Under the pieces are notes generated by a model, which had not been told where the DNA came from, searched no databases, and saw nothing but the letters and a program-made list of their open reading frames with translations. 62,963 bases of DNA from Actinomycetota bacterium. Lineage in GTDB: Bacteria > Actinomycetota > Acidimicrobiia > Acidimicrobiales > Ilumatobacteraceae. Of this stretch, positions 2,265-47,176 are shown in pieces. Made by a program: the position numbers and the translations under genes. Positions within the stretch are counted from its first letter, which is position 1; every line of letters begins with the position of its first letter. The stretch is from contig WLGW01000002.1 in NCBI GenBank assembly GCA_009703055.1, forward strand, positions 1-62,963, written 5' to 3'.

Positions 2265-4511
2265 TTAGCGAGCAAGTTTGACGCGACGTAATCGCAAACT
2301 GTTGGTCACCACGAACACTGATGATGATGCCATCGCCAAACCAGCCCACATCGGGTTCAATCGCCCAGTCGCAGCAAGTGGAATCGCTGCAACGTTGTAC
2401 GCAAAAGCCCAGAAGACATTGGTGCGAATCGTGCGCAATGTAGCTCGCGACAAAAGAATTGCATCGGGCACGGAACGAAGGTCTCCGTTGACGATGGTGA
2501 GATCACTGGCCTGCATAGCAACATCGGTGCCGCCACCCATTGCGATTCCCACATCTGCTTGTGCAAGTGCAGCAGCGTCATTTACGCCGTCACCCACCAT
2601 GGCGACGGCATAGCCACGTTCTTGCAAGTCCTTCACGACTGCGACCTTTTCATCGGGCATTACGCCTGCATATAAATGGTGTTCGTCAGTGTCGATGCCG
2701 ACTGACATTGCGATGGCCTCTGCAGTTGCTTTGTTATCACCCGTGAGCAACACCGGTGCAAGGCCCATCAACTTCAGTGCTGCGATTGCTTCAGCACTTG
2801 TGGGCTTTGGCTGATCAGATACGCAGAGAACAGCATTCGCACGGCCGTCCCAACTCACGAGAACTGCGGTTTGCCCATCAGCGCGAGCTGAGGAAAGGGC
2901 TTCCTTCAATGAACTCGGGATGATGACAAGTCGGTTGGTGAACATCTCTTCACGTCCGACCAGCACGATGACGCCACCAATGCGACCAGCAGCACCCACA
3001 CCGGGCATTGCTTCAAACTCATCAAGTTTCGGCAGTTCGCCTAACTCGCCTTCGGCTGCACTCACAATGGCGCGCGCAATCGGGTGCTCACTGCCCTTCT
3101 CCACTGCCGCTGCGTAGCGCAACGCAGATTCACGTGAGACGCCTTCTGCACACACAACGTTGGCAAGTGTCATCACGCCAGTAGTCACCGTTCCGGTTTT
3201 GTCGAGCACCACGGTGTCGATGCGGCGTGTGCTCTGCAGAACATCAATGCCCTTAATCACGATGCCCATCTGTGCAGCTCGACCACTACCGACCATGAGT
3301 GCAGTGGGGGTTGCGAGTCCGAGGGCACATGGACACGCGATGATGAGAACAGCAACTGCAGCAGTGAAAGCTTTCTCAACATCTCCGTCGAGAATGAGCC
3401 ACGCAGCCAAGGTGGCTGCACTAATTGCAAAGACAACCGGCACAAAAATAGAAGCGACCTTGTCGGCGACTTTTTGCACAGGCGCTTTCGTGGCCTGCGC
3501 ATCACGCACCAATTTGGCCATGCGCGCAAAGGTCGTTTCGCCACCCACACGAGTTGCACGCACCAGTAATCGGCCATTTTGGTTCACCGTTGCTGACGTG
3601 ACATTGTCGCCAACAGCGACATCGACAGGAACGCTTTCACCCGTGATCATGCTTGCATCGATGCTGGATGTGCCTTCTTCAACAACACCGTCTGCTGCGA
3701 TTTTTTCACCGGGGCGCACCACCAGAATGTCACCTTCGCGCACCACCGATGCAGGAATAGAGACTTCCTCCCCATCGCGCAATACGGTGGCGTACTTTGC
3801 ACCCATTGCAAGGAGCGACCGCAATGCATCACCCGCAGAGTTTTTCGCGCGCATCTCGAGATAGCGACCGAGGAGAAGAAAAGCCGTGACGGTGGCGCCT
3901 ACTTCGAAGTACACATGGGCAGTGCCTGCGTGCGTCATCGTTAATCCGTCGTGCACCATCGTCTCGTCGAGTGCATTCCCCCATACAAGTACCCAGATGC
4001 TCCAGAGCATCGCTGCAATCACGCCTACAGAGATCAACGTGTCCATTGTGGTGGTGCCATGACGAGCGTTCTTGAATGCGGCTTTATGGAACGGCCACGC
4101 ACCCCACGTTGCAACGGGCAGCGACAACACCATTGCCCACCATTGCCAGCCACTGAATTGCCACGGCATGATCATGCTGAGTGCAACTACAGGAATTGAT
4201 AGTGCTACAGAGAAGTAGAGACGAATACGAGCCTGACGAAGTCGTGCTGCAAGGTCATCATCAAATGGATTGTCATCCACGACGCGTGCACCGTAGCCAG
4301 CATCGAGAACTGCCTGAATGAGAGCGGACTGTTCAAGCGATGTTCCGTCATATGCAACCATCGCGGATTCTGTTGCGTAGTTGACAGCAGCTTCCACACC
4401 GTCAATCCCGTTGAGTGTCTTTTCAATACGTGCCGCACATGCCCCACAGGTCATGCCTTGAAGAGCAAGTTCTACTTCAACAATGGATTCGGGGGGAACC
4501 ACAACACTCAT
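2265..4511 (-). CDS. copA: Copper-translocating P1B-type ATPase
   Basis: Inner-membrane ATPase that exports Cu(I) from the cytoplasm. One N-terminal heavy-metal-associated domain carries GMTCGAC (Cys22, Cys25). It is followed by transmembrane helices, the actuator motif TGES (about 290), the membrane metal site CPC (about 393-395), the phosphorylation motif DKTGT (Asp437), an SEHP motif and the hinge [10 protein letters not shown]. The length of 748 residues is normal. The CPC motif together with the CxxC domain points to monovalent copper or silver. It starts 5 nt after the enoyl-CoA hydratase stop with an AGAGGT ribosome site, so the two are co-transcribed. No CsoR or CueR regulator is adjacent. 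A second copper module lies at 44.6 kb. Confidence 0.93.
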
Positions 4512-5514: not shown

Positions 5515-6045
5515 CTAGGAAGTCTTGCGAATCTCGTCTGCCCCAACCTGTTGGGCCAGCAAAATGCGTGCTCTCGCCACCCGGCTCTGCACAGTGCCAC
5601 GAGGGCATTGCAAAATGGCAGCCACTTCGTCATATCCAAAACCGAGAATGCGAACCAAGACAAAAGCTTCTCGGAACTGAGATGGCAAGGCATTGATGAG
5701 TTCACGAGTTTCGATGGCGTATCCCGCTTCGACTGAGATTTCCTGTTTCCGTGCTAATCCGTTCACCACCGACTGTTCTTTTGATTTCTTCTCTGCATGA
5801 TCAAGGCACACTCGACGAGCAATCGACATCAACCAGGATTTCGCGGTGGAGTCACCTCGGAATGACTGCAGACCTCGATATGAACGAAGAAAAGTCTCTT
5901 GGGTGATGTCATCAACATCATCGTTGCTCTGCCCGAACCACCGACAGAACCGATGTACGTCTTCCTCGCAGGCACGGATAACGCGTGAGAAAGCCTGATC
6001 ATCGCCGTCTTGGGCGAGAAGAAGGTCTCTTGTCGCGTCGTCCAT
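5515..6045 (-). CDS. ECF RNA polymerase sigma factor (metal-uptake module)
   Basis: Small group-4 (ECF) sigma factor of about 176 residues. Region 2 contains DDVDDITQETFLRSYRGL and SWLMSIARRVCLDHAEK. Region 4 contains LPSQFREAFVLVRILGFGYDEVAAIL followed by GTVQSRVARAR. The track ORF begins at 6147, but the first 34 residues are unlike any sigma N-terminus; the ATG at 6045 (MDDATRDLLL) gives a normal start. No ribosome site is evident, so translation may be leaderless. It is divergent from the metal ABC operon, whose last gene encodes a ZAS-type anti-sigma factor, its likely partner. It resembles the sigma factor at 46.2 kb. Confidence 0.88.
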   Translation of the reverse strand: MDDATRDLLLAQDGDDQAFSRVIRACEEDVHRFCRWFGQSNDDVDDITQETFLRSYRGLQSFRGDSTAKSWLMSIARRVCLDHAEKKSKEQSVVNGLARKQEISVEAGYAIETRELINALPSQFREAFVLVRILGFGYDEVAAILQCPRGTVQSRVARARILLAQQVGADEIRKTS

Positions 6046-6081: not shown

Positions 6082-6108
6082 GGGAACAAAAGGTGGCACA
6101 TGACCGTC
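6082..6108 (+). promoter_or_regulatory. Candidate ECF-sigma promoter of the metal ABC operon
   Basis: GGGAAC (6082-6087) and CGTC (6105-6108) are separated by exactly 17 bases, the classic ECF -35/-10 arrangement, directed into the metal transporter operon. Transcription would begin around 6114-6117, which would exclude the upstream ATG codons at 6010 and 6100 as starts. A similar element precedes the copper operon at 44.6 kb. Confidence 0.6.
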
Positions 6109-6165
6109 TGTATTGATATGGAGCCCAAAGATTCCCAATCCCACCAATCATTAGGTGACCCACTG

Positions 6166-7323
6166 ATGGGGGCTAGTCCAGCAGGTCCGGCACAAGAGCA
6201 AACACGTGGACAAGCCCAACGCCCACGCCCAGCGAAGAAAACAAACAATCGAGGATCACTCAATTCCTTTCATTCCGGTCTCACTGGTGGAATCCGGCTG
6301 TCGTTGTGCGTTGCCGCAGTTTTCGCATCGACAGTTGCACTGGCACGACATGATGACGAACCAATACAGGCTGCAACCAGTACTCCCGTCAACCCTGGTG
6401 CTCCTAGTACCGCACCCGTTGTTGCACAGAAAAGAGTTCTTGTTTCGGACCCTGCAAATACAGCAATAGTCCGTGAAATTGCTGGCGACCTTCTCATTGT
6501 CGAAAGCATTATTCCGCCCGGGGCTAATGGACACACATACGAACCAGTCCCTGCAGATGCCATCAAAGCTGCAAGCGCCGATCTCTACATCGAAAATGGG
6601 ATGGAACTCAATATGGCGGTGACCAATTTTGTTCGATCCAACTATCGATCGGGCACCCCCGAAGTCAGCCTTGCTAATGCAATTCCAAAGAACGAAGTCA
6701 TCAGCACAGACTCTGCGGAACAAATTGCTGCTCACGGACATGCGCACTCTTACAACGCTCACTTTTGGACCAACCCTTCGTATGCAATTGTCTATGCGCA
6801 ACAAGTGAGCGCAGCGCTTTCACAAATTGACAGTGCAAATGCAGCGACATACACAACACGAGCAAATGCCTTCATTGAACGATTGCGGGTTCTTGACACT
6901 GCTTTTGCGGCGGCAATTGCTTCCATCCCACCTCAGAACAAAAAACTGGTTGTGTATCACGACAGTTGGTCCTACTTCGGACGCCGTTATGGGATTCCCG
7001 TCGTCGGTGCACTGCAACCTGTTTCCTTCTCGGAACCATCTGCAGATGAAATTCGTAAAATGATTGATCAGATACGACGAGAGGCCGTTCCTGCGTTCTT
7101 CGGTAGTGAAGTGTTTCCCTCAGATGTGCTGAATGCAATCTCAGCAGAAACAAAAGCAAAGTATTACTCAGACCTTTCCGATGAAGTACTGCCTGGTACG
7201 CCAGGTTCGCCAGAACATTCGTACGAGGGAATGATGATTCAAAACGTTCGCATGATGACAACTGCTTTGGGAGGCAATGTAGCTCTCCTTGCAAATCTCA
7301 CACCCGGAGGATCGCCATCATGA
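6166..7323 (+). CDS. Zn/Mn-type ABC transporter substrate-binding protein (ZnuA/MntA-like)
   Basis: Cluster A-I metal-binding protein. It should capture a divalent metal outside the cell and deliver it to the permease encoded downstream. Likely ligands are the His of NAHFWTNP, the His of VVYHDSW, the Glu of FGSEVF and the acidic YSDLSDE segment. A short HGHAH run precedes the first ligand. A membrane segment (LSLCVAAVFASTVALA) follows a 40-residue basic, Pro/Gln-rich N-terminal tail, unusual for this family. ATG 6166 has AGGTGA seven bases upstream and lies after the predicted ECF promoter. ATG 6118 (leaderless) or ATG 6100 are alternatives; the track start at 6010 is unlikely. It overlaps the ATPase gene by 4 nt. 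Zn versus Mn is undecided. Confidence 0.82.
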   Translation: MGASPAGPAQEQTRGQAQRPRPAKKTNNRGSLNSFHSGLTGGIRLSLCVAAVFASTVALARHDDEPIQAATSTPVNPGAPSTAPVVAQKRVLVSDPANTAIVREIAGDLLIVESIIPPGANGHTYEPVPADAIKAASADLYIENGMELNMAVTNFVRSNYRSGTPEVSLANAIPKNEVISTDSAEQIAAHGHAHSYNAHFWTNPSYAIVYAQQVSAALSQIDSANAATYTTRANAFIERLRVLDTAFAAAIASIPPQNKKLVVYHDSWSYFGRRYGIPVVGALQPVSFSEPSADEIRKMIDQIRREAVPAFFGSEVFPSDVLNAISAETKAKYYSDLSDEVLPGTPGSPEHSYEGMMIQNVRMMTTALGGNVALLANLTPGGSPS

Positions 7324-8075
7324 TCACATTGCACGACATCGGCTTTTCCTACGGCAACAATCACGTTCTCCATGACATCACCACTGATTTTCATCCTGGC
7401 GAAATTGTTGGAATCATTGGACCGTCGGGGGCCGGAAAGACAACCCTTCTTCGGATACTCCTTGGTGAGCTGACACCAACTCAGGGACGAATCAACAATT
7501 CATCAAGTGCCAACATCGCTGTTGGGTATGTCCCACAGCTTGATTCTGGCGAACGAACTTTTCCACTCACAGTGGAAGAAATGGTTCTACTCGGTGCAGC
7601 AGCATTCAGTAGGAAGAAGCCGTGGTTTGACCAGTCAGAGAAGCGGGAAGCCTCAAGAATTCTTGAGCGACTGGGCATTCTGCAACTACGAAACAATCGA
7701 CTCAGCGAGTTATCGGGTGGCCAGTTTCAACGAGCCTTGATTGCTCGAGCATTGATGTCACGACCTTCGCTCTTGCTCCTCGACGAACCAACCAGTGGAA
7801 TTGACTTGCACACTCGACAACAAGTGCTCGACCTAGTCCATGAATTACAAACCGACGGATTCACCATCATCCTGACCACTCATGACTTGAACTGGGTCGC
7901 CGCACAACTGCCGCGAATTCTTTGCCTCAATGGAACAGTGACTGGTGATGGTGCACCTTCGGAAGTTCTCACAAGCCAGGTAGTCCGAGAGACCTATGGG
8001 GCAAACATGGATGTCATCTTCCATCAGGGTCGACCCGTTGTTGTCGACTCCGTCAATAACGGAGGTAATCAATGA
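7320..8075 (+). CDS. Zn/Mn-type ABC transporter ATP-binding protein
   Basis: ABC ATPase of 251 residues that powers metal import. Walker A is GPSGAGKT, the signature is LSGGQFQRALIARAL, Walker B is LLLLDEPTSG, and the switch His follows in LTTHDLNW. Its order between the binding protein and the permease, with 4-nt overlaps on both sides, shows a translationally coupled znuACB-like operon. It should act at the inner face of the cytoplasmic membrane as a dimer. The metal cannot be resolved from the ATPase. Confidence 0.93.
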   Translation: MITLHDIGFSYGNNHVLHDITTDFHPGEIVGIIGPSGAGKTTLLRILLGELTPTQGRINNSSSANIAVGYVPQLDSGERTFPLTVEEMVLLGAAAFSRKKPWFDQSEKREASRILERLGILQLRNNRLSELSGGQFQRALIARALMSRPSLLLLDEPTSGIDLHTRQQVLDLVHELQTDGFTIILTTHDLNWVAAQLPRILCLNGTVTGDGAPSEVLTSQVVRETYGANMDVIFHQGRPVVVDSVNNGGNQ

Positions 8076-8893
8076 GTTACTTCACAGATCCGTTTCAATA
8101 TGACTTCTTTAGTCGTGCACTCATCGTTTCCGTCCTAATCGGTGCGCTCGCAGGTGCGATTGGTCCTTTCGTTCTTGTACGAAGAATGGCATATATCGGC
8201 CAAGGAATGTCCCAAAGCATTTTGGGAGGCGTCGCACTAGGAGTTGTGTGGGGACTTGATCTCTACTTCGGCGCGGCTGTTGCGGCCGGCCTCTCAGCTG
8301 CACTCATTTACTTCGTTCGCAACCGCGGCGTTCCTGTTGATACCGCAATCGGCATTGTCGCTTCGACTCTCTTTGCCATTGGTGTTGCGGTTGTTTCCTC
8401 TTCACGAGATCGACGTTTGAATTCTGCAAACCTGCTCTTTGGCAATGTCCTAGGGGTTGACACAGAAGACATCATTCTTGTTGCTCTCGTAACCGTCATT
8501 GCTGCAATCGTTTTATTCCGAAACTACAAAACACTTCTTGCAGTTACACATAACTCGGCAGTCGCAGCAGCACATGGCGTTCGTGCTCGTCTCATGGAAG
8601 TTATCTTCAGCGCACTTCTTGCCATGGTCGTTGTCACCGCATTGCGCGTTCTCGGTGTACTTCTCGTCGCAGCAACACTTCTTATCCCAGCAGCAACTGC
8701 AACCATGACGTTCAGGACATTCCGAAACATCACCATTGCATCCATCTGTCTAGGGACATCATTTGCAATCATCGGACTGTTCTTGTCATTTCATCGCAAT
8801 ATCGCCAGTGGACCAGCAATAGTTCTGGTCGGCGCAACAGTGTTTGCAATGAACATGTTGACAAGCACCACATCTCAACGGAACAGAGCCTGA
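8072..8893 (+). CDS. Zn/Mn-type ABC transporter permease
   Basis: Integral membrane protein of the ABC-3 (ZnuB/MntB) family, 273 residues with about eight hydrophobic segments. The family-typical stretch YIGQGMSQSILGGVALG lies near residue 45 and LLVAATLLIPAATA near residue 210. It forms the membrane channel of the importer with the preceding ATPase and binding protein. Its stop is 5 nt before the anti-sigma start, so the regulator is in the same transcript. Confidence 0.92.
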   Translation: MSYFTDPFQYDFFSRALIVSVLIGALAGAIGPFVLVRRMAYIGQGMSQSILGGVALGVVWGLDLYFGAAVAAGLSAALIYFVRNRGVPVDTAIGIVASTLFAIGVAVVSSSRDRRLNSANLLFGNVLGVDTEDIILVALVTVIAAIVLFRNYKTLLAVTHNSAVAAAHGVRARLMEVIFSALLAMVVVTALRVLGVLLVAATLLIPAATATMTFRTFRNITIASICLGTSFAIIGLFLSFHRNIASGPAIVLVGATVFAMNMLTSTTSQRNRA

Positions 8894-8898
8894 CGGCC

Positions 8899-9501
8899 AT
8901 GGATACTGAGGGAAGGTTTTCGTGCCCGTGGCTAGAACGGGTATCAGCGTTACTCGACGACGAGTTACCAGTTGCTGAACGACAGATGGTTACTTCGCAC
9001 GCACAATCGTGTGAGACCTGCTCTCCGATAATGAGCCAGAGAAATCAAAAGAACGAACCCGCTCATCTCCTGAGCGTGATTCAGCCTCGTTCGATTGTCA
9101 CCTTTCCACAACGCAACACTCCACAGCTGCGAGCACTGCTCGCCATCGTTGGGATAGCAATCATTGTTGGCTCAGTGCCGGGGTTCATCCGAGGCAACAC
9201 TGACGGCAATAGCCTTCATGATCTTCGGCACCTCTCCATTTGGCAAGTTGCACTGGGGATGGGCGCAGTCTCAGCCTCAATTTCATTCAGGCTCTCTCGC
9301 CTGTTGACAGTCATTGTTGCAACGTTTCTCGTTCTCACAGGTCTTGCAACTGTTTACGATCTTTTGACGGGACATAGAGGTCCGTGGACTGACCCGCTTC
9401 ACCTTGTTGAAATTGCAGCAGTTCTCGCAATCTTGCGTCTGGTATATCCATCTCTGAGACTGTCAAGAATTCGTCGAAGTGAGATTTCTACACATCGTTA
9501 A
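8899..9501 (+). CDS. Membrane anti-sigma factor with ZAS motif (metal module)
   Basis: The N-terminal 45 residues are soluble and contain a zinc-finger anti-sigma signature: LLDDELP, then HAQSCETC (HxxxCxxC). About four hydrophobic segments follow. This arrangement suits a membrane-anchored anti-sigma factor that would hold the divergently encoded ECF sigma until a signal is sensed. A membrane part with RHLSIW and HLVEIAAVLAIL blocks aligns by eye with the anti-sigma at 46.6 kb, so the two look paralogous. The signal is unknown; metal state is an inference from the operon. Confidence 0.75.
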   Translation: MDTEGRFSCPWLERVSALLDDELPVAERQMVTSHAQSCETCSPIMSQRNQKNEPAHLLSVIQPRSIVTFPQRNTPQLRALLAIVGIAIIVGSVPGFIRGNTDGNSLHDLRHLSIWQVALGMGAVSASISFRLSRLLTVIVATFLVLTGLATVYDLLTGHRGPWTDPLHLVEIAAVLAILRLVYPSLRLSRIRRSEISTHR

Positions 9502-42415: not shown

Positions 42416-44524
42416 TTATGGGGTACGTGAGTACCAATCGACAAATTCAAAAGTTGCAGCATCGAGTAACGGCGCAATCAAAGAAGCAAAAGAGACCGTC
42501 ATATGGTTGTCGTCTCGGTACACCAGAACATTTCCCACAACTGTTGGACACGACGTCGCGATACAGAACCAGTTCCTTACCCACAGCACTTGTTGACCGG
42601 TTCGATCAAAATCAACCAACATCGCGTTCATATCATCGCGATATGCGACTCTGACACTTGGTGAGCATTGCTGAATGTTTGTATAGCTCCGGCTTAAGCA
42701 GGTGGGCACATTTTGACCCGGGTACGGAGTGTCTTCCATCAGAACTGGTTTGATTCCGCGGCTTTCAAGTTCTGTCACTGTCCCTTGCAGGCCTTCTCGC
42801 CATTCCTTCTGCCACATCGGTTTGCGTGTTGCAGCAGACAGCAATCTCTCAAAATGTGCGACAAACACAACTCGCACACCGTCGGCGACCATTTGATCAA
42901 GAACATTGCGTCGCCATGGCGCACATTCTTTGTACACCTTGCCGAGCACACTGCTAAAAGTAGGGATTTCTGCAGGAGGACATCCGCGCTTTGTGTAAGT
43001 AATGAGTTTCCAGTTGCGTTTGATTGCAACTTTCTCAAATGCCGGGAACCATTGAGCAGCGTGAGAGTCGCCATAAAGACCAACAACAACGGGTGAAGTT
43101 TCATTGCCGAAGACACATTTCTTCGGACGAATCGCAGAGAAACCTACATGGCAGTTGTTTCTGTAAATACTCGGCATATCGGACAATGCGCCTTGCAAAC
43201 TGGGCTCGAGATTGCCCGGCAGTCCTGTCATTGTCGCTGCTTCCACAATCGCTTGTACCGGCTCTCCCCGTGATGGAAGGTTGGGAGCAGTGGGCACCAA
43301 CGTGGTGGTCGTAGCGGCAAGTCCTGTAGGCAACGTTGTGTCGCCAATGACATTCGGAGTTGTCGCATCAGGACCCACCGACATTGCAGGCGGATTGTTG
43401 CGCGCTACGAGGCCTGCTCCGGCAACTAAGGCGATGATCGCAGTGGCCAGTGCAACCGCGCGAAGCCCTCGAAGCCTGATGTTGTAACGAATTGGATTTT
43501 CGATGAATCGGAACGAGAACTCCGAAAGTCCAAGAGCGATTGCAGTACATACCAATCCATCAATGACCGATAACTCACGATTGAAAGCTGCCGCAACAAC
43601 AATCAAGATTGGCCAGTGCCATAGATAAGCAGAATATGAGCGAGAGCCCAGCCATTGAAACGGCGACAGACGCAGAAGCGCAACAGGCGCCCACGATGTT
43701 GCGTTTCCACCACGGAGCACAACTGCTGTTGCTAACACTGGTGCCAAAGCCCATGGGCCAGGGAACCGTGTTCTTTCGTCAAACTGCACAACAGTCACAA
43801 TGATGCCGATCAACCCACACCATGCTGCGATTGCACTTGCAGAACGAGCCCACTTCATTGTCATCATCGGCACCACTGCAACGAGAGCACCCGCAGCAAG
43901 TTCAAACGCACGCGTATGCGGCGAGAAGAACGCCCATGGCTGAGATGAATCCATCATCCTCATGCAAAGAACAAAAGATGCAACTCCGACGACAGCAGAG
44001 AGCAATCCGATACGGACGCGCACATTGACTCGACCCGTTGCAGTTGCACCAAGACAGATCAGTGCAATGAGAACAGGCCACACCACATAAAACTGCTCTT
44101 CGACAGCCAGGCTCCAGTAATGCTGCAAAGGAGACGGTGGCAACGTTGATTGCAGATAGTCGGCGCCTCTGCTTGCGAAGACAAAGTTGGAAGAAAACGT
44201 TGCAACAGCCAGAACATCATTCGCAACAGAACGCAGACGAAGTGGCTCTAGCCAAATCCACGATGCACCAAGGGTTGCAACCGCAACGACGGCCGAAACG
44301 GGAAGAAGGCGTCGGACCCGACGGGCATAGAAGGATGAGAGAGAAATACCCCCACTGGATTCCTTCTCAGTAACCAATAAAGAGGTAATGAGGAACCCCG
44401 AGACCACAAAGAAGACATCAACGCCGACATAGCCACCCGCGAGGCCTGGGACCCCTGCGTGAAAGAGAAGGACGGCGAGAACCGCAATGGCGCGAAGGCC
44501 TTCTATGTCCGCTCGCCGTTGCAT
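42416..44524 (-). CDS. Acyltransferase-3 with SGNH domain (OafA-like)
   Basis: About 700 residues. The N-terminal half is an acyltransferase-3 membrane module (ADIEGLRAIAVLAVLLFHAG and PGLAGGYVGVDVFFVVSGFLIT), roughly ten helices. A linker rich in Pro/Thr follows, and the C-terminal half is an SGNH-type domain with VGLYGDSHAAQW. This architecture transfers acyl groups to surface sugars or peptidoglycan. The track starts at 44626; ATG 44524 (MQRRADIEGLRA) is the family start. The SGNH part has the nucleophile Ser in GDSH. Polymer target unknown. Confidence 0.9.
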   Translation of the reverse strand: MQRRADIEGLRAIAVLAVLLFHAGVPGLAGGYVGVDVFFVVSGFLITSLLVTEKESSGGISLSSFYARRVRRLLPVSAVVAVATLGASWIWLEPLRLRSVANDVLAVATFSSNFVFASRGADYLQSTLPPSPLQHYWSLAVEEQFYVVWPVLIALICLGATATGRVNVRVRIGLLSAVVGVASFVLCMRMMDSSQPWAFFSPHTRAFELAAGALVAVVPMMTMKWARSASAIAAWCGLIGIIVTVVQFDERTRFPGPWALAPVLATAVVLRGGNATSWAPVALLRLSPFQWLGSRSYSAYLWHWPILIVVAAAFNRELSVIDGLVCTAIALGLSEFSFRFIENPIRYNIRLRGLRAVALATAIIALVAGAGLVARNNPPAMSVGPDATTPNVIGDTTLPTGLAATTTTLVPTAPNLPSRGEPVQAIVEAATMTGLPGNLEPSLQGALSDMPSIYRNNCHVGFSAIRPKKCVFGNETSPVVVGLYGDSHAAQWFPAFEKVAIKRNWKLITYTKRGCPPAEIPTFSSVLGKVYKECAPWRRNVLDQMVADGVRVVFVAHFERLLSAATRKPMWQKEWREGLQGTVTELESRGIKPVLMEDTPYPGQNVPTCLSRSYTNIQQCSPSVRVAYRDDMNAMLVDFDRTGQQVLWVRNWFCIATSCPTVVGNVLVYRDDNHMTVSFASLIAPLLDAATFEFVDWYSRTP

Positions 44525-44592
44525 CCCTACGAGTATGGCTTGCCTGTTCACCCAAGATGAGCCACGAGTCACAGGGACTGTGTCACAGCGAT

Positions 44593-44618
44593 GGAACTTT
44601 TCCCTTCTTCTTGATGTC
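44593..44618 (+). promoter_or_regulatory. Candidate ECF-sigma promoter of the copper operon
   Basis: GGAAC (44593-44597) and TGTC (44615-44618) are 17 bases apart, the same layout as upstream of the metal ABC operon at 6.1 kb (GGAAC, N17, CGTC). It points into the SCO1 gene, whose operon encodes its own ECF sigma, so positive autoregulation is likely. Confidence 0.5.
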
Positions 44619-44633
44619 TTCATCAAGTTAGGT

Positions 44634-45251
44634 ATGAGAAATCTAAGACAAACAATTCTTGCTGTTCTGGCAATCAGCAGCCTGGCTCTCCCCCTTAGTG
44701 CATGCTCCCAAGAATCAACCTCATCTCTTCTCGGCTATGTACCACCTTCACAACTGAGTTCTTCTGGCGTCTCGGTAACGGAACAACCAGGAGGGAAAGC
44801 ATTCGAGTTAAAGGCTCAAGAAGGTGAAGTTCTCATTGTGTACTTCGGCTACACCAACTGCCCTGATGTCTGCCCCACGACATTGGTCGCCATTAAAAAT
44901 GCAAAGAAGAAGATTGGGGCACTTGCAGAGCGAGTTGATCTGGCCATGATCACCGTTGACCCTCAACGTGACACCGCCAATATTCTCCCCCGCTATCTCT
45001 CCTCATTCACCGATCGCTTTCACGCACTCATTCCCGCAAATGACGCAGAGTTGCGCTCTGCAGAAAATGCATTCGGAGCCACCTCCTCAGTCATAACAGT
45101 GGACGGGAAAATCGAAGTAGTCCATGGGGGCACGGCGTACCTCGTCGATGACACCGGCATGGTCGTCGTTCAATGGCCATTCGGGCTTGATTCGAATTCG
45201 ATGGCAAACGATCTCACAATTCTCCTCAATGAAAGGACACAAACAAAATGA
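44634..45251 (+). CDS. SCO1/SenC-family copper chaperone lipoprotein
   Basis: About 205 residues. A signal peptide with lipobox LPLSAC anchors it outside the membrane. The thioredoxin-like core has FGYTNCPDVCPTT (CxxxC, copper-binding Cys pair) and a distal His in VVHGGTAYLV. It delivers copper to the CuA site of cytochrome oxidase or acts as a redox sensor. The track ORF begins at 44487 inside the divergent acyltransferase region; ATG 44634 gives a proper signal peptide. Translationally coupled to the next gene (4 nt overlap). Confidence 0.92.
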   Translation: MRNLRQTILAVLAISSLALPLSACSQESTSSLLGYVPPSQLSSSGVSVTEQPGGKAFELKAQEGEVLIVYFGYTNCPDVCPTTLVAIKNAKKKIGALAERVDLAMITVDPQRDTANILPRYLSSFTDRFHALIPANDAELRSAENAFGATSSVITVDGKIEVVHGGTAYLVDDTGMVVVQWPFGLDSNSMANDLTILLNERTQTK

Positions 45252-45751
45252 AGAAGACAACAAAGGCCATTGTGGTCTCAGCGTTAAGCATTGTCAGCAT
45301 CAGCGGACTTGCAGCATGCGGTAGCGACACTGAGAGTGCCGACACCACCGTTGCTGCAAATTCCACTGCCCCTGCCACGCCAGAAATCACTGTCACTGGA
45401 CAGTGGGCACGTCAGAGCCCAATGGCGACCGACATGGGTGCTGCATACATGACAATCAATTCCAACGTCGACGATGAACTCGTCGGTGCAATGGTTGATA
45501 CATCTGTTGCCGAGATGACTCAGGTACACGAAACAATCATGGGCGAAGGCGACTCCATGAAGATGCAAGAAGTTAAGAAGATCGATGTCATTGCGGGAAC
45601 ACCAACAGAACTGAAAGCTGGCGGCTATCACGTGATGCTGATGAAATTGGTAAAGCCTCTTGAACTCGGCACTGAAATTTCCGTTACATTGAAATTTGCT
45701 AAGGCCGGTGACGTCGTTGTCACGGTTCCTATTCTGGAGGAAGCTCCTTAA
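45248..45751 (+). CDS. PCu(A)C copper-chaperone lipoprotein (DUF461)
   Basis: 167 residues. A lipobox (GLAAC) anchors it outside the membrane. The core has the copper-site pattern with Met and His in MTQVHETIM, MKM and GGYHVMLM, typical of PCu(A)C. It supplies Cu(I) to cytochrome oxidase together with SCO1. Start overlaps the SCO1 stop by 4 nt (ATGA). Next is the cupredoxin-like gene 2 nt downstream. Confidence 0.92.
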   Translation: MKKTTKAIVVSALSIVSISGLAACGSDTESADTTVAANSTAPATPEITVTGQWARQSPMATDMGAAYMTINSNVDDELVGAMVDTSVAEMTQVHETIMGEGDSMKMQEVKKIDVIAGTPTELKAGGYHVMLMKLVKPLELGTEISVTLKFAKAGDVVVTVPILEEAP

Positions 45752-45753
45752 AG

Positions 45754-46143
45754 ATGACTGATGAGGAAACCGTTGCCCCCAAGAAGGGCAGCAATGCAGG
45801 GATGATGACGGCGATACTTCTCGTCGTCCTCATCCCCCTCATCGTTTTTTTGGTCGTCATGATTCGACCAGACCCCACTACCTATCGCTTCACGATTGCT
45901 AACGGCACAAGAGCAACGATGGATGCAGGACAAACAGTCGCAAACCCACTCCCCCCTGCACTCACGGTCAAAGTGGGCGACTCCATTGAAGTCATCAACA
46001 ATGACACTGCGCCCCATACCTACGCTTTTTTGGTTCTGCGGCCCGGCGAAACTGGAAGGTATACCTTCAGAAACATCGGTGTGTTTAGTGGGACATGCAC
46101 TGTGGGCGACCATAAAGATGTGTCAATCACCGTTGTTGGGTGA
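45754..46143 (+). CDS. Membrane-anchored cupredoxin-like protein
   Basis: 129 residues. A short charged N-terminus and one transmembrane segment (about 16-36) precede a cupredoxin-like beta domain. The copper-type ligands are His in APHTYAF and Cys/His in GTCTVGDHKD. The usual axial Met is not visible: the position after the His is HKDVSITV. That would make an unusual or catalytically different copper site. Its place between PCu(A)C and the ECF genes ties it to copper handling. Unknown partner. Confidence 0.7.
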   Translation: MTDEETVAPKKGSNAGMMTAILLVVLIPLIVFLVVMIRPDPTTYRFTIANGTRATMDAGQTVANPLPPALTVKVGDSIEVINNDTAPHTYAFLVLRPGETGRYTFRNIGVFSGTCTVGDHKDVSITVVG

Positions 46144-46155
46144 CACACTGGAGGT

Positions 46156-46635
46156 GTGAGAAAGAAGAAGGAAGACTCCTTTGACGTCATGATGCGGGAA
46201 AACATCCGCAGCGTCACAGCGTTTGCTCTTTCCATCACATCGAATCCACACATTGCTGAAGAAGCTGTGCAGGAAACTTTTATTCGAGCATGGCGCTACT
46301 GGCCTACGTTCCGCCACGAGTCATCGGCAGTCTCATGGCTGATAACAATCTGTCGTCGTGTTGTCATCGACATGGCAAAGAAAAATCGTGTCCATGAGCA
46401 ACTGCCCGAGAATGTCATCGATATTCGCGACCACTTTGCATCCACAGCCATTTATGACATGGTGCGAGAACTTCCATTGCCACAACGTGAAGTAGTCGTT
46501 CTCTGTGCAGTGTTGGGCTTTGACTACGACTCAGCTGCCACTACGTTGAACATTCCCATCGGAACAGTTCGATCTCGCTTAGCGCGTGCCCGAGAACAGC
46601 TCGGTCGTCAACTCGATGAAGTGATTGCTATCTGA
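46156..46635 (+). CDS. ECF RNA polymerase sigma factor (copper module)
   Basis: 159-residue ECF sigma. Region 2: NPHIAEEAVQETFIRAWRYWPTF and WLITICRRVVIDMAKKN. Region 4: LPLPQREVVVLCAVLGFDYDSAATTLNIPIGTVRSRLARAR. The GTG start has GGAG upstream, which is a rare start here. It overlaps no gene, and the anti-sigma follows immediately (ATG 2 bases after the stop). By eye it resembles the sigma factor at 5.5 kb. It probably drives its own operon from the candidate promoter at 44.6 kb. Confidence 0.9.
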   Translation: MRKKKEDSFDVMMRENIRSVTAFALSITSNPHIAEEAVQETFIRAWRYWPTFRHESSAVSWLITICRRVVIDMAKKNRVHEQLPENVIDIRDHFASTAIYDMVRELPLPQREVVVLCAVLGFDYDSAATTLNIPIGTVRSRLARAREQLGRQLDEVIAI

Positions 46636-46636
46636 C

Positions 46637-47176
46637 ATGACACAAATACCATGCAAGCGTGCACGAGCACTTATTTTGCAGCCACTTGCAGACGCTCACG
46701 ATGTTGCAGTTGCTCGCCAGCATCTTCTTGAGTGCCCCCTTTGTGCATCAGACACCGCAGATGACATGGTCGAATCCATCAGTTCCCGTCTCGACATCCT
46801 TCGAGAACCTGGCGGGACACTTCGCATCAGTCTCCTCATCGTCGGAAGCCTCCAGGTCTTTCTTGCTTTGCCATGGATCTTTGGAGCCACACCACTGTGG
46901 GGACCACGATCAGACACCTCTGTTGCTCATCTCACTCGCGATGGCGTCATTGGCCTCGTTCTCGGACTTGCAGGAGCTGCAGTTGCCATCACTCCCCGAC
47001 TGGCCTATTTCGCCCTATCAATCTGTGGTCTCCTCGTGACCTTGCAGGCGGTTGCTTTCATCACCGACCGCGTAAACGGCACAGCCCACCCCGTTTTTGA
47101 GACGATTCACGTTCTTGCCGTCATCATCACGGTTCTTGTCGCAATCATCGCGTTCCCACGCCGTACTCGGCGGTAG
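46637..47176 (+). CDS. Membrane anti-sigma factor with ZAS motif (copper module)
   Basis: About 179 residues. The N-terminal domain has HLLECPLC (HxxxCxxC zinc anti-sigma motif), and four hydrophobic helices follow. The layout and blocks such as AHLTRDGVIGLVLGLAGAAVAITPR align by eye with the anti-sigma at 8.9 kb. The track uses a TTG at 46625; the ATG at 46637, right after the sigma stop, is better. It should hold the ECF sigma at the membrane, and the pair likely senses copper or redox state (inference). Confidence 0.78.
   Translation: MTQIPCKRARALILQPLADAHDVAVARQHLLECPLCASDTADDMVESISSRLDILREPGGTLRISLLIVGSLQVFLALPWIFGATPLWGPRSDTSVAHLTRDGVIGLVLGLAGAAVAITPRLAYFALSICGLLVTLQAVAFITDRVNGTAHPVFETIHVLAVIITVLVAIIAFPRRTRR

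Follow-up and report, generated by a model that had tools for sequence, protein, structure and literature searches.

The window analysed here is the whole stretch of 62,963 nucleotides at positions 1 to 62,963 of contig WLGW01000002.1 (GenBank assembly GCA_009703055.1), from a lake-dwelling actinomycetotal bacterium of the Ilumatobacteraceae; the assembly is an incomplete metagenome-assembled genome (MAG; 1.58 Mb, 119 contigs, 78.5% complete). Our subject is a copper-delivery operon at 44634–47176 (module B), which encodes an extracytoplasmic function (ECF) sigma factor, sigB, and a membrane anti-sigma, asB. A metal-uptake module at 5.5–9.5 kb (module A) encodes a second such pair, sigA and asA. 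The features of both modules are listed in Table 1. Successive genes of module B are separated by -4, 2, 12 and 1 bases, and SCO1 to asB therefore form one operon. A first-pass annotation of this DNA had placed genes for SCO1, PCu(A)C, a cupredoxin-like protein, an ECF sigma and a membrane zinc-binding anti-sigma (ZAS) protein in one operon. All five genes were found there, and both the domains and the gene gaps agree with a copper-delivery operon that owns its sigma/anti-sigma pair. The cupredoxin-like protein gave weak matches only, the best being to plastocyanin (TIGR02656, E 0.005, 17.3 bits against a cut-off of 87.9; E 0.012 for plastocyanin in the PDB). The start of asB is most likely the ATG at 46637 rather than the TTG at 46625.

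Table 1. Features of modules B and A, with positions in the window
Feature	Position	Strand	Evidence
Predicted ECF promoter of the copper operon, GGAAC-N17-TGTCT	44593..44619	+	conserved spacing and placement; intergenic
SCO1/SenC copper chaperone	44634..45251	+	PF02630, E 1.6e-26, 93.3 bits (cut-off 22.8)
PCu(A)C copper chaperone	45248..45751	+	PF04314, E 1.2e-29, 102.8 bits (cut-off 29.4)
Membrane-anchored cupredoxin-like protein, Cx4H motif near C terminus	45754..46143	+	weak plastocyanin/amicyanin matches; homologue at same place in relatives
sigB, ECF sigma factor	46156..46635	+	region 2 PF04542, E 9e-16; region 4 PF08281, E 4e-15
asB, membrane anti-sigma	46637..47176	+	N-terminal C-x22-Hx3Cx2C domain, then four helices; alignments, AlphaFold2 model, profile match to asA
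sigA, ECF sigma factor of the uptake module	5515..6045	-	PF04542, E 1.9e-15; 40% identity to sigB over 129 amino acids
Predicted ECF promoter of the uptake module, GGAAC-N17-CGTCT	6083..6109	+	about 9 bases before likely ZnuA ATG at 6118; same place and spacing in L058
ZnuA-type metal-binding protein	6118..7323	+	PF01297, E 1.7e-61
ZnuC-type ABC ATPase	7320..8075	+	PF00005, E 4.5e-32; best NCBIfam match AztA, below cut-off
ZnuB-type permease	8072..8893	+	PF00950, E 6e-55
asA, membrane anti-sigma of the uptake module	8899..9501	+	PF13490 (zf-HC2) above cut-off; conserved columns

The Hx3Cx2C motif of asB (residues 29–36) lies in an N-terminal domain ahead of four predicted membrane helices, and asB, encoded beside its ECF sigma, thus has the sequence features of a class I ZAS anti-sigma. 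Beyond zf-HC2, the four-helix membrane domain matched no Pfam or NCBIfam family. Homologues were collected with an alignment spanning the asA clade, the asB clade and their relatives, and 82 full-length members were used for the tree, the conserved columns and the neighbourhood counts. The named records among the nearest loci (numbered L below; genomes are numbered G) include MAGs of Ilumatobacteraceae and Acidimicrobiaceae, and the full-length homologues extend to other families of the order and to other parts of the phylum. As judged by these alignments, asA and asB belong to a widespread actinobacterial anti-sigma family that extends from freshwater actinobacteria to mycobacteria.

Within the zinc motif, H29, C33 and C36 were invariant in all rows covering them, and C6 was present in 77 of 78. 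The conserved positions of the membrane part (asB numbering) are H98 (80/82), R101 (69/82), D144 (78/82), E or D at 155 (75/82) and H158 (82/82). asB itself carries H98, R101, D144, E155 and H158, and the counterparts in asA are H107, R110, D154, D165 and H168. An AlphaFold2 model of asB (mean predicted local distance difference test 78, predicted template modelling score (pTM) 0.58) placed helices at residues 60–81, 96–118, 120–147 and 152–172, and hydropathy agreed with the predicted helices for both asA and asB. If the zinc domain is cytoplasmic, helices 2, 3 and 4 would carry all five membrane residues at their outer ends. This cluster would be a natural place for an extracytoplasmic metal site, and we infer that it may bind metal.

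The candidate promoter of the copper operon begins with the first base of its -35 element, GGAAC, at 44593, 41 bases before the SCO1 ATG. The divergent acyltransferase gene upstream probably starts at 44524, and the candidate is therefore intergenic. In a more distant relative with the complete operon at the same place (L093), GGAAC-N17-TGTC lies 38 bases before the start of the SCO1 open reading frame, with the spacing seen in the window and an otherwise different sequence. The ZnuA gene of L058 is preceded by GGAAC-N17-CGTT at the same place as the ZnuA site of the window, and GGAAC-N17-GGTC was found 28 bases before a PepSY_TM frame in L055.

When GGAAC-N-GTC was sought in the divergent sigma/anti-sigma regions of relatives, little was found, and the -10 element there proved to be CGAC. 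GGAAC-N17-CGAC was present in 43 of 50 such regions, always facing the anti-sigma gene and in no case the sigma gene. Mononucleotide shuffles gave 0.03 occurrences on average and 1 at most, and other spacings were rare. As the 50 rows are related, the 43 motifs reflect conservation and should not be counted as separate events. Cytochrome c-SCO1(-cupredoxin) and PCu(A)C(-TlpA) operons in relatives also carry this motif, about 10 bases ahead of their likely start codons, for example at 7485 and 11107 in L074, at 4621 and 2548 in L078, and at 5528 and 1999 in L085. The two modules of the window carry variants of the family CGAC element, CGTC in module A and TGTC in module B. Genome searches for the motif followed by an ATG in four relatives recovered those copper operon genes, together with many hits that looked like coding sequence. 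The complete genome of one relative (G019) contained one further good site, 700 kb away, before a gene for a cupredoxin-like lipoprotein (identified by eye, with weak matches to copper proteins). In the window itself GGAAC-N15..18-CGTC occurs 4 times against 2.6 expected, which is no more than chance; it is therefore placement and conservation, rather than density, that constitute evidence. A match near a CopC-like gene elsewhere in the source genome (L223) falls within the upstream gene, some 240–300 bases from the likely start, and was left out of the count.

The first-pass annotation had also described the two modules as paralogous, with similar anti-sigmas, and had suggested a duplicated circuit with possible cross-talk. 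Pairwise alignment readily joined the sigma factors (E 2e-26 over the aligned region), whereas asA and asB showed no detectable similarity by pairwise BLASTP (E 4.4) and were for that reason compared as profiles. The hhalign comparison gave a probability of 97.9 and an E-value of 3.9e-13 over 154 columns at 19% identity. A search with asB retrieved the asA-type gene of G058 (E 1.7e-7), and one with asA retrieved the asB-type gene of G082 (E 7e-4). The profile alignment and the cross-clade retrieval thus indicate that the proposed paralogy of asA and asB is right. Close pairing of the modules, unlike their homology, did not survive the phylogeny, and a failure of the two anti-sigmas to group in a tree was what the first-pass annotation had named as refuting its proposal. 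In the tree of 82 anti-sigmas, three other ZnuABC-linked anti-sigmas form a clade with asA (100/100), which nests among copper-type anti-sigmas from the same bacterial family (93/99); asB falls in a separate clade (100/99) on a long branch whose position is less certain (90/49). A constraint joining the two clades lowered the log-likelihood by 26.4 and was rejected (approximately unbiased (AU) test, p 0.009), and the sigma tree likewise did not join sigA and sigB. asA-type and asB-type genes also coexist in G058. By these trees asA and asB are ancient paralogues with separately conserved clades, and a recent local duplication of the modules is rejected.

The neighbourhoods of the family were examined within 6 kb of each of the 82 loci. 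A copper gene was found at 40 loci and a metal gene at 48, the neighbours including SCO1, PCu(A)C, CopC-CopD, DUF1775/YcnI, ZnuABC and CbiMNQ. The sigma and anti-sigma genes are divergent or in tandem in most relatives. In the usual layout of the order the anti-sigma gene diverges from the sigma gene, which is followed by genes for cytochrome c, SCO1, a cupredoxin and a protein of about 347 amino acids, with TlpA-like and PCu(A)C genes nearby; most or all of these are present in L067, L069, L073, L074, L078, L079, L080, L084 and L085. The same genes occur in a different order in L162, L164, L165, L170 and L171. In L172, L178 and L184 the anti-sigma gene is followed by CopC-CopD, and DUF1775/YcnI genes are found in L178 and L187; the protein of about 347 amino acids is encoded there also.

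Module A bears out the further statement of the first-pass annotation that a second, homologous sigma/anti-sigma pair is wired to metal uptake, as genes for a ZnuABC-type transporter are present between sigA and asA. This arrangement is retained in L058, L063 and L064. The transporter scored 178, 185 and 163 bits with the NCBIfam models AztA, AztB and AztC, below their cut-offs of 220, 280 and 350. In L055 (3619-8945) a PepSY_TM gene and ZnuA, ZnuC and ZnuB genes come after an asB-type pair, apparently an independent second link of such a switch to metal uptake. A gene for a CopA-like copper P-type ATPase (2265-4511, minus strand) stands one gene from module A; in L058 the module has no such neighbour.

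We consider it probable, at roughly 0.6, that module B is a self-regulated copper-supply module, in which sensing of metal shortage by asB frees sigB to make copper-delivery proteins. What can be read directly from sequence is the operon, its domains, the homology, the conserved residues, and a promoter motif that recurs before the copper genes of relatives. In the proposed mechanism asB would hold sigB through its cytoplasmic zinc-motif domain, and H98, R101, D144, E155 and H158 would read extracytoplasmic metal, most likely copper. With metal bound at this outer site sigB would stay sequestered; when metal is scarce it would be released, bind GGAAC-N17-TGTC and transcribe its own operon. The larger amounts of SCO1, PCu(A)C and cupredoxin would then load copper into cytochrome oxidase, and more sigB and asB would also be made. 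Module A would be an older paralogue, following the same logic and wired to an uptake transporter. Shortage is preferred as the signal on indirect grounds, namely that the genes concerned serve delivery and uptake rather than export, and the experimental role of SigC of Mycobacterium tuberculosis, which prevents copper starvation (PMC7924339).

Several observations weigh against this proposal. No recognised copper gene lies within 6 kb of 42 of the 82 family loci. In G129 the genes that come after an asB-type pair are PepSY_TM and ZnuABC genes rather than copper genes, and in a close relative (G093) sigB-asB stands between the same neighbours as in the window, without SCO1, PCu(A)C and cupredoxin genes; SCO1 and PCu(A)C were not found anywhere in the G093 genome. 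COX1 was present in all but one of 17 genomes checked, and SCO1 or PCu(A)C was absent from most; as most genomes of the genus thus have the oxidase without these chaperones, the module is not required for oxidase assembly as such and is accessory. The pattern GGAAC-N18-GTCT, which was partly defined from the window's own two sites, is not enriched in the source genome (14 matches against 23 in a reversed control), and the two module sites are the only ones of the 14 that fall between genes at a suitable place before an operon. The asB model is of medium confidence by its pTM, and a fold search with it against the PDB gave no match below E 0.6. Finally, sigA (102.6 bits) and sigB (70.9 bits) both fall below the cut-off of 219 of the SigC equivalog model (PRK09649).

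Since L093 has the copper genes at the same place, their loss in G093 is simpler than an insertion in the lineage of the window, and the latter is disfavoured. A comparison of a close relative (L092:5429-5999) with window positions 44524-46156 shows SCO1, PCu(A)C, the cupredoxin and the promoter lost, with sigB (87% identity) and asB (77%) kept. As the pair is kept there without the copper genes, it may serve other targets.

Among other explanations, the near invariance of C6, H29, C33 and C36 would suit a sensor of redox or respiratory state, in which sigB would be controlled by the state of the oxidase or, as in RsrA, by the ZAS cysteines, with copper genes as targets for their service to the oxidase. 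The presence of cytochrome c and a TlpA-like thioredoxin in the family regulon also speaks for it. Against this, zinc in membrane-bound ZAS domains is believed to be structural in many cases (PMC7406223), and such a sensor would explain neither the H-D-E-H set of the membrane domain nor the association with ZnuABC and CbiMNQ; we regard a redox signal as unlikely.

Slightly less likely still is a detoxification sensor, from which extracytoplasmic copper releases sigB so that the induced proteins bind surplus copper. CopC and CopD, neighbours in relatives, are named resistance proteins, and the CopA-like ATPase lies near module A. However, DUF1775/YcnI together with CopCD recalls the ycn locus of Bacillus, which serves copper acquisition; no copper exporter is in the module or bears the motif; SCO1 and PCu(A)C are delivery proteins and ZnuABC is an uptake system; and the ATPase gene is not kept beside the module in L058. 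SigC, which responds to copper starvation (PMC7924339), shares open frames with this anti-sigma family. Cross-talk, in which sigA and sigB serve both promoters and co-regulate copper delivery and metal uptake, is conceivable from the shared form GGAAC-N17-nGTCT and from the placing of just these two genome matches as promoters, but a duplicated pair that works in this way is very improbable, as GGAAC is common to many ECF promoters, the clades are ancient and separately conserved, and the few known sites disagree at the first base of the -10, with CGT for module A and L058 and TGTC for module B and L093.

The NCBIfam SigC model was the best or second best for sigA and for the sigma factors of relatives scored, and not for sigB. 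In four genomes that belong to a single distant genus within the phylum, a single open frame encodes the family anti-sigma domain followed by a sigma domain (L152:5756-7876 (-), L153:5387-7111 (-), L154:6232-7605 (+) and L265). The two scored sigma domains (L152 and L154) are SigC, with 360–363 bits against the cut-off of 219. From its SigC, PPE and MmpL genes we infer that the genus is Mycobacterium, and the anti-sigma domain was found in 67 of its 119 genomes, within long frames or alone. M. tuberculosis SigC has been described as having no known anti-sigma (PMC7924339; PMC8999054), and control of SigC by conformation has been suggested in a review (PMC8999054). The in-frame anti-sigma is a candidate regulator of SigC. 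More broadly, and as a tentative proposal that we hold at a little under even odds, one membrane anti-sigma family with an extracytoplasmic metal site may control SigC-like sigma factors widely in Actinomycetota, re-wired to copper, zinc/manganese or cobalt supply, and may be the missing SigC regulator, sharing its reading frame in part of the mycobacteria. GGAAC-N17-CGAC also occurs upstream of the anti-sigma/SigC frames, facing away from them (L152:7166 (+), L153:6800 (+) and L154:6179 (-)), and the L154 motif faces a PPE-like gene.

ECF/anti-sigma pairs and copper chaperone operons are already known kinds of system. CnrYXH of Cupriavidus (nickel/cobalt) is a metal-responsive membrane anti-sigma system; the module B operon resembles it in this respect and differs in having no gene for a CnrX-like periplasmic sensor. 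Class I ZAS anti-sigmas such as RsiW, ChrR and RsrA share the N-terminal Hx3Cx2C domain beside an ECF sigma, whereas the asB family has in addition its four-helix membrane domain with the conserved H-R-D-E-H set. SigC (group ECF36, copper acquisition under limitation) resembles sigB in its copper-supply regulon and in the anti-sigma family found in frame with it; it differs in its targets, which are ctpB and nrp rather than SCO1, PCu(A)C and ZnuABC, and in the sub-threshold scores of sigA and sigB given above. The copper-dependent CorE of Myxococcus is likewise an ECF sigma over copper genes, but senses through its own Cys-rich tail, with no anti-sigma found (PMC3107203). sigB ends 10 residues past region 4, with no cysteine in that tail. 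A literature search, with subscription journals outside it, returned no description of a four-helix ZAS family with the H-R-D-E-H set, of its motif-defined copper regulon, of its re-use with ZnuABC, or of a frame shared with SigC.

Bacterial sensors of copper excess are well known; much less is clear about how cells perceive a shortage of extracytoplasmic copper, and the sensor of SigC is a stated open question (PMC7924339). The asB family offers a compact candidate, with named residues and a promoter motif that predicts targets, and its natural versions wired to different metals would allow metal specificity to be compared between relatives.

Two further observations concern the family neighbourhoods. 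In L149 (7440-9317) and L151 (7276-9222) a stand-alone family anti-sigma gene adjoins the cobalt-transport genes CbiM and CbiQ (domains tested for L151), with no sigma gene within the stretch examined; the L151 locus also has an ArsR-like regulator. The conserved membrane protein of about 340–347 amino acids, which has no Pfam match (L074:8919-9959; L172:9212-10237), accompanies both the SCO1-cupredoxin and the CopCD-YcnI genes, in 27 of the 82 loci, and is probably an undescribed copper-handling protein.

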